Below are positions 47,072 to 50,628 of a stretch of 64,000 nt of DNA, in pieces. Where the stretch lies: contig NZ_CANLAG010000003.1 in NCBI RefSeq assembly GCF_947488715.1, forward strand, positions 62,001-126,000, in the 5' to 3' direction. Both the position numbers and the translations under genes were made by a program. Position 1 is the stretch's first letter. The number at the start of each line of letters is the position of its first letter. The stretch comes from an uncultured Tateyamaria sp. (GTDB lineage: Bacteria; Pseudomonadota; Alphaproteobacteria; Rhodobacterales; Rhodobacteraceae). The notes under the pieces are model-generated. The model made no database searches. It saw only the letters and a list, made by a program, of their open reading frames with translations, and had not been told where the DNA came from.

Positions 47072-47829
47072 ACTGGTCCGCCATCAGTGCCATCTACGTA
47101 TTTGAGATGACACGGTTTTTCCGAACATTGGCACAGTCGCTGATTTCTCCGGTCTTGTCGACGTCCCTCTATTTTGTCGTCTTTGGCGCCGCCATCGGCA
47201 GCCGCATTCAAGAAGTGGATGGCGTGAGCTACGGCGCATTCATCGTGCCGGGCCTTATCATGTTGACCGTGATGACACAGAGCATCTCGAACGCTTCCTT
47301 CGGCATCTATTTCCCGAAATTCATCGGCACGATTTATGAATTGTTGTCAGCGCCCGTGAGCTTTCTGGAAATTGTCATGGGGTATGTCGGCGCGGCCGCG
47401 ACAAAGGCGATGTTCATCGGCGTTATCATTCTGATCACCTCGTTCTTTTTCGTGGATATCGAGATTGCGCACCCGCTGGCGATGATCCTGTTCCTTGTGC
47501 TGACCTGCATCAGTTTTGCGTTGTTCGGCTTTATCATCGGGATATGGGCAGGCAATTTCGAACAACTGCAATTGGTGCCGCTGCTGATCGTGACGCCATT
47601 GGTGTTTCTGGGCGGGTCCTTTTATTCGATCTCGATGTTGCCGCCGGTCTGGCAGACGATTTCAATGTTCAACCCTGTGGTCTATCTGATTTCCGGGTTC
47701 CGCTGGGCGTTCTTTGGCCTCACGGATGTACCCATTCTGACATCGCTCATCGCGATTGCCGGGTTCACGACGCTCTGCCTCGGCGCGGTCTGGTGGATCT
47801 TCAAATCCGGGTGGCGCATCCGCCAGTAA
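47068..47829 (+). CDS. ABC-2 type transporter permease
   Basis: 253 residues with six hydrophobic helices, e.g. [20 protein letters not shown] and the last [16 protein letters not shown]. The ABC-2 signature region is around [19 protein letters not shown] and [13 protein letters not shown]. Forms the membrane half of the exporter with the preceding ATPase. Cargo unknown. Confidence 0.88.
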
Positions 47830-47898
47830 CGCTGCGGCAGACAACTCGTTTCGGCGCTGGCCTTGTTTGGGTGCGGGACGCAATCTACATGGGCTAGA

Positions 47899-48696
47899 AT
47901 GAAACGCTGGATCCCCTTCATGTCATCCGATCCCACTGTGGCCGTCATTCGGCTGCAAGGGGTCATTGCCGGTGGCTCGCGCGGCACGCTGAACGATCAG
48001 GCCCTTGGCCCTGTGATCGAAAAGGCGTTTGCCCGCGGCAAGCCCGCCGCAGTCGCGCTTGAAATCAATTCGCCGGGCGGCAGCCCGGTACAGTCTTCGT
48101 TGATCGGCGCGCGTATCCGCAGGCTGGCCGAAGAAAAAGATGTGCCTGTCCTCGCCTTTGTCGAAGACGTTGCCGCATCAGGTGGCTACTGGCTTGCCGT
48201 GGCGGCCGATGAAATCTATGCCGACCCGTCTTCGGTGGTGGGGTCCATTGGTGTGATTTCCGCCGGTTTCGGCGCGCATGAATTTCTGGCGAAACAGGGT
48301 GTTGAACGCCGCGTCTACACGGCGGGTAAATCCAAATCGATGCTCGACCCGTTCCGCCCCGAAAAGCCAGAAGACGTCGACCGCCTCAAAGGGCTGTTGG
48401 ACGACATCCACACCAATTTTATCGACCACGTGCAATCGCGGCGTGGCGGCAAACTGGACGCCGAGGCCGATCTGTTCACGGGCGAAGTCTGGCTGGCGCA
48501 AAAGGCAAAAGAGCTGGGACTGATCGATGGGATCGGCCATATCCGCCCGATGCTGAAAGAGCGGTTCGGCGACAAGGTCAAACTGAGGCGTTACGGTGTC
48601 CGTCGCTCGTTTTTGTCGCGCTTCGGCGCACAAATGGTTGACGACACAATCAGTTCCATCGAAGAACGGGCAGCCTATGCCCAGTTTGGACTGTAA
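47899..48696 (+). CDS. S49 family serine peptidase (SppA-like)
   Basis: 265 residues from the ATG at 47899, a short-form signal peptide peptidase. The nucleophile Ser is in VEDVAASGGYWLAVAADE and the general-base Lys in YTAGKSKSMLDPF; ALEINSPGGSPVQS is the oxyanion strand. N-terminal hydrophobic character is weak (MKRWIPFMSSDPT), so it may be cytoplasmic or peripheral. It is followed after 3 bases by a 55-residue CxC microprotein and then an antiporter, with an overlap linking the last two. Confidence 0.85.
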   Translation: MKRWIPFMSSDPTVAVIRLQGVIAGGSRGTLNDQALGPVIEKAFARGKPAAVALEINSPGGSPVQSSLIGARIRRLAEEKDVPVLAFVEDVAASGGYWLAVAADEIYADPSSVVGSIGVISAGFGAHEFLAKQGVERRVYTAGKSKSMLDPFRPEKPEDVDRLKGLLDDIHTNFIDHVQSRRGGKLDAEADLFTGEVWLAQKAKELGLIDGIGHIRPMLKERFGDKVKLRRYGVRRSFLSRFGAQMVDDTISSIEERAAYAQFGL

Positions 48697-48699
48697 CGC

Positions 48700-48867
48700 A
48701 TGTTGTCGAAGATCGTCGTTTTGTTCCTCGTTTTCATGGGTGTGCTTGCCATGGCAGGCAAGTTGCATTGGATCGGGGGCAAACGTCTGAAACAGACAAA
48801 ATGCGATTGCGGACGCCACCGTATCGGCAAAGGGCCGTGCGCCTGCGGGCGGGGTAAGTCTGGATGA
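48700..48867 (+). CDS. 55-residue membrane microprotein with two CxC motifs
   Basis: ATG at 48700, three bases after the peptidase stop; TGA at 48865-48867 overlaps the antiporter ATG by 4 bases. This spacing is the best proof that it is translated. A hydrophobic helix near residues 5-20 (IVVLFLVFMGVLAMAG) is followed by CDC at 35-37 and CAC at 49-51 in a basic, Gly-rich context (GRHRIGKGP). Four Cys could bind zinc or iron-sulfur. No known family recognised. Confidence 0.7.
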   Translation: MLSKIVVLFLVFMGVLAMAGKLHWIGGKRLKQTKCDCGRHRIGKGPCACGRGKSG

Positions 48868-49826
48868 CAGAACTTATGCCATGGCTGCTGAGCGGGCTGG
48901 GCCTGTTGATCCTGCTTTTGGCGGGAGACTCATTGGTCAAAGGCGCCGTCAACTTGTCTTTGCGGTTGGGTGTACCCGCCTTGATCGTCAGTCTGACCAT
49001 CGTGGCATTTGGCACATCCGCGCCCGAGTTGCTGATTGCTGTTCAGGCGATCCTGGACGACGCGCCAGGTCTGGCCATCGGGAATGTGGTTGGGTCCAAC
49101 ACGGCGAACATCCTGTTGGTGCTGGGCATTCCGGCGCTGCTGGCGACGATGCACACGTCTGAATGCGACACGCGCAAAAGCTATAACTACATGATCGCCG
49201 CCTCGATCCTGTTCATTGCACTCGCGTTTCGCGGTGTATTCGACTGGATTGCAGCGCTTGTCTTGCTGGCTGCGCTGGCCTTTGTCCTTTTCGACCAAGC
49301 GATGGAGGCACGTGGCCACCGCGCCGCCTGTGCAGACGTTTCCGAGGACGAAGAAGACATTGAAGGCGTGGACCCGGACCTGCCCGGATGGCGGATCGCG
49401 GTGTTTCTTGTCCTGGGTTTGATCGGCCTTCCGCTTGGGGCGAGCCTTTTGGTGGACAACGCCACTGTCATCGCCAAAACCTATGGCGTCAGCGACACAG
49501 TCATCGGTTTGACCCTCGTGGCTGTTGGTACGTCCTTGCCGGAACTTGCCACGACAGTAATGGCCGCCTTGCGCCGCCAGGCGGACGTGGCACTGGGCAA
49601 TGTGATCGGCTCGAACATGTTCAACCTGCTGGCCATCATCGGTGTTGCCAGCCTGGTGGGGCCGATCCCGGTCGACCAATCGTTCCTGACCTTCGATCTG
49701 TGGGTCATGCTGGCCGCGTCGATCCTGCTGGTGCCGTTTGTCTATTTGCGGCGCGACATCACACGCATTTGGGGCGTGATCTTGACCGTCCTGTATGTGG
49801 CCTATTTGGCTATCGTACTGAGCTGA
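48864..49826 (+). CDS. Calcium/sodium antiporter (CaxA/YrbG family)
   Basis: 320 residues with ten or eleven predicted helices. The two inverted-repeat alpha motifs GNVVGSNTANILLVLG and GNVIGSNMFNLLAIIG identify the family. A cytoplasmic acidic loop between the halves (SEDEEDIEGVDPDLP) separates them. Overlaps the microprotein gene by 4 bases. Confidence 0.9.
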   Translation: MTELMPWLLSGLGLLILLLAGDSLVKGAVNLSLRLGVPALIVSLTIVAFGTSAPELLIAVQAILDDAPGLAIGNVVGSNTANILLVLGIPALLATMHTSECDTRKSYNYMIAASILFIALAFRGVFDWIAALVLLAALAFVLFDQAMEARGHRAACADVSEDEEDIEGVDPDLPGWRIAVFLVLGLIGLPLGASLLVDNATVIAKTYGVSDTVIGLTLVAVGTSLPELATTVMAALRRQADVALGNVIGSNMFNLLAIIGVASLVGPIPVDQSFLTFDLWVMLAASILLVPFVYLRRDITRIWGVILTVLYVAYLAIVLS

Positions 49827-49848
49827 GTTTGCAAAAAGGGAGAGTGCG

Positions 49849-50628
49849 ATGACGTGCGCGCTTGTGACAGGGGCAGGGCACCGTTTGGGTCAGGCCATGG
49901 CAGTGTATCTGGCGGAACGGGGCTATGATGTGGCCGTGCACTATGCCAGTTCCGACAAGGGCGCACAGGAGACCGTCGCACAAATCGAAGCCAAGGGGCG
50001 GCGTGGCGTGGCGCTTCAGGCGGATCTGTTGGACGAGGACGCCACGCAGGCGCTGTTTGGTCGTGCTGTGGATGCACTGGGCGGGCCAATCACCTGTCTG
50101 ATCAACAACGCGTCGATCTTTGAATATGACACGGTTGAGACGGCCACCCGCGAGACGTGGGACAAACACATGCATTCGAACCTGCGCGCACCCTTTGTGC
50201 TGACACAGGCCATGGCCGCCCAGGGGCTGACGCCAGATACCGATGACATGAATGAACCAAAGGCGTCGGGCCTCATTGTGAACATGGTCGATCAACGCGT
50301 GCGCAAACTGACGCCGGAGTTCATGACCTACACACTCGCCAAGATGGGTCTGTGGGCGCTCACCCAGACCAGTGCGCGGGCGCTGACGCCCGCCATTCGC
50401 GTGAATGCCATTGGCCCAGGTCCAACTCTGCAAGGGGGACGTCAGAGCGCGGAACACTTTGCCAAGCAGCGCGCCGCGACCGTATTGCAGCGCGGGTCCA
50501 ATCCCGCAGACATCGTGGGCGCGCTTGGTTATTTCCTCGATGCGCCGGGTGTCACAGGGCAATTGCTGTGCACCGATGGCGGGCAACATCTGGCGTGGGA
50601 AACACCTGACGTTGTGGGGGTCGAATAG
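49849..50628 (+). CDS. Short-chain dehydrogenase, possibly FolM-like pterin reductase
   Basis: 259 residues, ribosome site AAAGGGAGAG before the ATG. The cofactor motif is TGAGHRLG rather than the classical TGxxxGIG, which resembles pteridine and dihydromonapterin reductases (TGAAxRLG-like). Catalytic Tyr-Lys in YTLAK and the NNAS motif are present. The run NMVDQRVRKLTPEF parallels pteridine reductases. A role in tetrahydropterin reduction is plausible and untested. Confidence 0.7.
   Translation: MTCALVTGAGHRLGQAMAVYLAERGYDVAVHYASSDKGAQETVAQIEAKGRRGVALQADLLDEDATQALFGRAVDALGGPITCLINNASIFEYDTVETATRETWDKHMHSNLRAPFVLTQAMAAQGLTPDTDDMNEPKASGLIVNMVDQRVRKLTPEFMTYTLAKMGLWALTQTSARALTPAIRVNAIGPGPTLQGGRQSAEHFAKQRAATVLQRGSNPADIVGALGYFLDAPGVTGQLLCTDGGQHLAWETPDVVGVE

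Follow-up and report, generated by a model that had tools for sequence, protein, structure and literature searches.

What is encoded in the narrow gap between the genes for an S49 peptidase (sppA) and a Na+/Ca2+ antiporter (cax) in the window, by which we mean the whole 64,000-nucleotide stretch of DNA analyzed here, and might its product work with either neighbor? The stretch belongs to a 4.1 Mb genome in 24 contigs, whose own bacterial family is called the host family below. The preliminary description had placed a 55-residue frame in this gap, 3 nt after sppA and coupled to cax by an ATGA, and the frame is present in just that form: nucleotides 48700-48867 of the forward strand translate as MLSKIVVLFLVFMGVLAMAGKLHWIGGKRLKQTKCDCGRHRIGKGPCACGRGKSG (55 residues, stop TGA), with CDCGRHRIGKGPCACG as the C-terminal four-Cys tail. 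The sppA stop at 48694-48696 leaves 3 nt before the microprotein ORF, and the microprotein stop shares the ATGA at 48864-48867 with the ATG of cax. At 168 bp the ORF exceeds the default size limit of common gene callers. The neighbors also include uvrC and the oxidoreductase gene of Table 1. The sppA product matches Peptidase_S49 (9.1e-35) and, with a score under the curated cut-off, SppA_dom (3.1e-41), in a domain scan of the longer ORF that begins with TTG at 47863. Rfam gave no match in 47800-49900 and a scan for sigma-70-type promoters found none in 47750-49900; the latter interval contains eight terminator-like sites, against a mean of 2.3 in shuffles.

Table 1. Features at and around the microprotein gene (window coordinates).
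Feature	Position	Strand	Remarks
Microprotein ORF	48700..48867	+	55 aa, then TGA; N-terminal membrane helix, basic linker, four-Cys tail
Membrane helix, residues about 2-24	48703..48771	+	AF2 helix; hydropathy over 17 residues is 2.18 or higher in 69 relatives
Cys tail C35-C37-C47-C49, conserved G38, R39, R41, G43	48802..48849	+	Presumed zinc ribbon
sppA, S49 peptidase	47899..48696	+	265 aa from ATG; no N-terminal membrane helix; C-terminus QFGL
cax, Na+/Ca2+ antiporter gene	48864..49826	+	ATGA overlap with microprotein ORF
SDR oxidoreductase (NF006597)	49849..50628	+	Further member of the conserved neighborhood

As many as 78 ORFs of at least 40 aa overlap the 8 kb around the microprotein, and frames of this size are thus so common here that its length is no evidence for a gene; the evidence has to come from conservation. 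In a first search of 61 genomes, a match at E up to 0.1 was recovered in 34, including all 20 genomes of the window's genus (its own among them), some of those outside the genus being weak. A second genome collection contributed 49 loci, in which the nearest relative, from an uncultured Tateyamaria sp., is 91% identical; pooling the sets gave 79 loci, with some genomes in both. The small ORF lies directly 3' of sppA in every one of these 79 close loci, with gaps of up to about 120 nt, and they specify 69 distinct proteins of 52-68 aa, 68 with exactly four Cys and one with five. Among the pairwise comparisons of the distinct proteins, pN is below pS in 2345 of 2346, and dN/dS averages about 0.40 over the 586 unsaturated pairs; the microprotein frame is under purifying selection. 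A profile built from 43 members (A1) matches 281 of the 296 host-family genomes (295 genera) at E up to 0.01, although at least one of these (G299) is without the Cys part. The sppA-cax gap of relatives, proposed earlier as the place to look for a constant frame and Cys, has both. That a chance, untranslated frame merely happens to sit between two genes is therefore extremely improbable, abundant as short ORFs are in the stretch, in view of the purifying selection, the breadth of the profile matches and the constancy of frame and Cys across divergent loci. Judged by its sequence relatives, the microprotein is a real, broadly conserved protein of an unnamed family.

Neither Pfam nor NCBIfam has a model that the window protein matches at E up to 1, and the small protein (at E up to 0.01), SppA and Cax had no match among the PADLOC models. 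Across the 43 members of the short form typical of the host family, the scattered weak matches were to SWIM (0.0011, two of 43), Moricin (0.031, eight of 43) and a TatA-type model (0.0037, one of 43). A CDGSH (mitoNEET-like) motif was considered and dropped by eye on its spacing and the missing His; no CDGSH-type family occurs among the Pfam matches of the 43 members.

The membrane helix claimed for the protein is borne out by high hydropathy in all 69 proteins and by an AF2 model with a helix over residues 2-24. The model (mean pLDDT 70.7, pTM 0.34) is confident for the helix only: the first two ten-residue blocks score 91 and 86, the remaining ones 57, 65, 65 and 50, and the Cys tail is modeled with low confidence. 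The Cys are the best conserved residues of the family, separated from the helix by a linker that varies in length and sequence. In the 43 aligned sequences C35, C37, G38, C47 and C49 are invariant, while R39, R41 and G43 are conserved in at least 90%. Two Cys knuckles with four or more Cys are found in all 69 proteins, but the pair of CxC motifs originally described, correct for the window protein, does not hold as the general motif. The usual form is CxxC-x9-CxC (Cys spacings 3,10,2), seen in 48 of the 69; CxC-x9-CxC (2,10,2) occurs in just 19, CxxC-x8-CxC (3,9,2) in one, and the remaining protein has a fifth Cys. CxC...CxC was hence dropped as the defining motif. All 19 CxC forms come from loci of the window's genus, in which another locus (L007) has CxxC, so that the simplest reading is that the window's CxC probably arose from CxxC by a one-residue deletion.

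The suggestion that the Cys pairs hold a metal fared less clearly. The near invariance of the Cys speaks for it, as do the PDB matches of the short-form profile, which are weak (E 0.21 and above) and mostly to zinc-finger or zinc-ribbon proteins; metal binding as such is plausible, and the four-Cys tail, a presumed ribbon, is probably zinc-binding. Regarding the side of the membrane on which such a ribbon would lie, the net charge after the helix is higher than that before it in all 69 proteins. By the positive-inside rule, the more positive flank of a membrane helix is the cytosolic one, and hence the charge distribution favors a tail on the cytosolic face.

The surroundings of the gene were followed into more divergent members of the host family. 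Among the 30 host-family genomes with the weakest matches, the small ORF lies behind sppA in 28. The two exceptions are G299, with a distant S49 match only (E 2.9e-13) and a small ORF that retains the helix and not the Cys, and G318, in which the small gene is intact and no SppA match was found at E up to 0.001. The G299 ORF (L132, 2388-2525) is a helix-only remnant of 45 aa, devoid of Cys, and overlaps cax by 4 bases. All 15 host-family genomes without an A1 match were inspected at their best SppA match. A close SppA is present in 13; the other two have a distant S49 gene only, with no small gene beside it. Behind the close SppA, six of the 13 show, by eye, a divergent ORF with helix and Cys (L080, L082, L086, L090, L091 and L092), two have a helix-only ORF lacking Cys (L087 and L089, 37 and 46 aa) and five have nothing similar.

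The gene after the microprotein in the host family is usually cax or an SDR gene. The coupling to the antiporter emphasized in the preliminary description is real in the window as an ATGA overlap, but it is uninformative as to function, as many loci retain the small gene but have no cax: there is no cax match in the fetched stretch of two of the 79 close loci and 14 of the 30 divergent ones (L103, whose contig ends early, was left out of the divergent count). With the small gene staying while cax is absent, the antiporter link looks incidental and was dropped as a functional one; by this gene-order evidence, cax is probably a neighbor and not a partner.

Searched against 289 genomes of the class, profile A1 gave five matches, all from the host family, which by itself suggested restriction to one bacterial family. 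This was overturned by a second profile (A3), which includes the divergent members found behind sppA and gave 99 matches at E up to 0.01. Of these, 94 are from non-family genomes, 40 of which match at E up to 1e-4; the weaker matches may be spurious. Twenty-five non-family loci were fetched by A3, and sppA lies upstream within about 500 nt in 12. Ten of the remaining 13 were inspected, with glyQ found downstream in seven, a dihydroorotase gene upstream in two and one locus left unassigned; several of these small genes precede glyQ and follow a methyltransferase-like gene, with no close SppA. A family model confirmed one GlyQ and one dihydroorotase, the other glyQ calls having been made by eye; for the methyltransferase-like gene, the matches to PrmC/HemK-type models stayed below the cut-offs. 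At L136 and L137 (G562 and G386), a protein with a helix and CxxC...CxxC is specified downstream of dihydroorotase, and SppA is on another contig; this small protein is possibly a paralogue.

The converse search started from the peptidase. A close SppA occurs in 139 of the 289 class genomes, 134 of them non-family, and 85 non-family sppA loci were scanned for an ORF that starts no more than 450 nt after sppA and combines a helix with three or more Cys (CxxC or CxC, followed by C). Such an ORF was found in 44, against none of 85 in an antisense-strand control of the same scan. Extending the scan to 900 nt in 38 of the 41 negatives, here with no matching control, added one more, at 478 nt. In total, 45 of the 85 loci have a longer version (helix, then CxxC...C) and 40 do not. 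The gene that then follows is glyQ in 35 of the 44 sppA-linked loci and in 17 of the 41 negatives of the first scan. The short- and long-form profiles can be aligned across both helix and ribbon (hhalign probability 97% in one comparison), and their common position behind sppA lends further support to their homology. The longer relatives occupy the same place in many other alphaproteobacteria. Besides the NCBIfam model discussed at the end, the long form has weak matches to Zn_ribbon_3 (0.001, four of 16) and L32p (0.0018, four of 16).

A hydrophobic helix is absent from the window SppA and from all 75 host-family N-termini checked, and in the 85 class loci SppA is without an N-terminal helix in 84 when the longest start is taken and in 81 with the nearest ATG. 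An SppA helix is found in none of the 44 loci with a small neighbor versus one of the 41 without (longest start), or in one versus three (nearest ATG). As SppA lacking a small neighbor is also helix-free, the two kinds of N-termini being alike, the strict version of the idea, in which the microprotein replaces a lost SppA anchor, is not supported. At its other end, SppA finishes in [FYW]G[LVIM], mostly as RFGL, RYGL or QFGL, in 78 of the 79 close and 22 of 28 divergent family loci (48685-48693 in the window); the same ending is seen in 39 of the 44 class loci with the small gene and 34 of the 41 without. It is a possible self-inhibiting or docking tail. In Bacillus subtilis, the C-terminus of SppA can occupy the active site and the membrane protein SppI blocks SppA self-cleavage (PMC7568657); the [FYW]G[LVIM] tail is therefore where a contact would reasonably be sought first. 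As to S49 genes on plasmids, an SppA-like S49 peptidase less than 60% identical to the window's is found in 33 Rhizobium plasmid records; on one of them (NZ_CP030762.1) its neighbor is an IS6 transposase, and the annotation shows no small gene between the two. Mobile copies of the microprotein itself were sought with the protein of a relative (L051): viral contigs contain none, and plasmids gave two weak, partial Rhizobium matches, of which one, when opened, lies in a conjugation operon and was judged a chance match.

Taken together, we tentatively favor, while not regarding it as probable, that the microprotein is an adaptor or regulator acting on a helix-free S49 peptidase at the inner membrane, with its ribbon in the cytosol. 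It would be a single-pass inner-membrane protein with a four-Cys tail forming a minimal zinc ribbon on the cytosolic side; its helix might keep the SppA complex at the membrane, and the ribbon might dock on or control SppA, as SppI does for the SppA of B. subtilis. That it binds SppA, and whether any control would be positive or negative, are inferences. In support of such a partnership, the small gene stays behind sppA where cax is gone, its longer version is found at about half of the class loci, and the two genes co-occur: among 284 non-family genomes, a close SppA is present in 31 of the 40 with the small gene (E up to 1e-4) versus 103 of the 244 without it (odds ratio 4.7, p=3e-5, uncorrected for relatedness). 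Against it stand the small genes without a close SppA (nine of those 40 genomes, as well as G318), SppA without a small gene, the lack of a complementary helix in SppA, the helix-only ORFs of L087 and L089, the five host-family genomes with SppA alone and the low-confidence AF2 tail. A more specific version, an alphaproteobacterial two-part membrane protease in which the small zinc-ribbon protein recruits and controls the helix-free peptidase, with [FY]GL as a possible docking or self-inhibiting tail, is in our estimate unlikely.

The linkage to sppA could also be explained by long-kept gene order alone. The small protein would then be an SppA-independent membrane zinc-ribbon protein, encoded in an ancestral alphaproteobacterial block (methyltransferase-like gene, sppA, small gene, glyQ) that stayed together, a reading we consider possible, if rather doubtful. 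It would account for the 13 of 25 A3-fetched loci with no sppA upstream and the glyQ downstream in seven of the ten inspected, for the glyQ that also follows most sppA-linked class loci, and for G318, which retains the small gene without SppA. It sits less well with the host family, where cax comes and goes and the small gene is still behind sppA in 28 of 30 genomes, or with a co-occurrence with SppA above chance. A role as a membrane redox or metal sensor, in which the four Cys would either coordinate zinc, copper or an Fe-S cluster or pair up in disulfides, and would signal stress to a partner such as SppA, strikes us as distinctly unlikely. Conserved Cys next to a linker variable in both length and sequence would suit a sensor, but the combination of CxxCG and a further Cys knuckle comes closest, through weak matches, to the structural zinc ribbons of Nop10 and bL32, and the sole metal-related neighbor, cax, is often absent.

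The open-licence PMC literature yielded nothing linking such a small protein to SppA, no report that brings together sppA and a zinc ribbon in Alphaproteobacteria or sppA and glyQ, and nothing on the signal peptide peptidase SppA in Roseobacter; the main text of a Sinorhizobium meliloti paper (PMC10117765) contains none of the terms sppA, glyQ, zinc and peptidase. The microprotein is nearly universal in a large bacterial family, with longer relatives across many alphaproteobacterial families, yet the window protein is without a matching Pfam or NCBIfam model. A conserved gene adjoining sppA opens a direct experimental route to the question of what keeps a helix-free SppA in place and regulates it.

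Among characterized proteins, the ribbons of Nop10 and bL32 share with the microprotein family CxxCG and, at a similar distance, a second Cys pair, and in the alignments the first Cys pair and the last Cys-Gly line up (short-form profile, E 0.21 and above); the long-form PDB matches reach 0.00068 and above, L32 accounting for 19 of 24 sequences. Nop10 and bL32 are, however, soluble ribosome or snoRNP proteins, and they have CxxC in both knuckles, whereas the second knuckle of the microprotein is CxC.

No Pfam or NCBIfam model fits the family convincingly, the nearest being PP0621_fam (NF041023). Its members are likewise small, with an N-terminal membrane helix, a linker and a C-terminal ribbon that starts with CxxC, in contrast to the CxC of the window's own first pair. 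The model finds all 16 long-form proteins of set A4 at E up to 0.1 (best 6.5e-11), long forms mostly scoring under its cut-off; one scored long-form member has 36.8 bits against the cut-off of 45, and G348 just reaches the cut-off. None of the 43 short-form proteins was listed at E up to 1 or reached 45 bits, and nothing in the window genome matches at E up to 0.01. By eye, the PP0621_fam proteins mostly end in C-S..H or similar, in contrast to the CxC of the short form, and sppA occurs in none of 25 stretches fetched with the model (22 above cut-off). We found no study of PP0621 function; where it is mentioned in the open-licence PMC literature, it appears as a hypothetical protein.

A functional parallel is offered by SppI (YteJ) of B. 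subtilis, a membrane protein whose gene shares an operon with sppA and which binds and inhibits SppA (PMC7568657). The likeness is one of analogy only: SppI belongs to the RDD superfamily, and the SppA of B. subtilis brings an N-terminal membrane domain of its own (PMC7568657), whereas the window SppA is helix-free. What the microprotein has in common with SppI is the direct linkage of its gene to sppA, seen in 79 of 79 close and 28 of 30 divergent loci.
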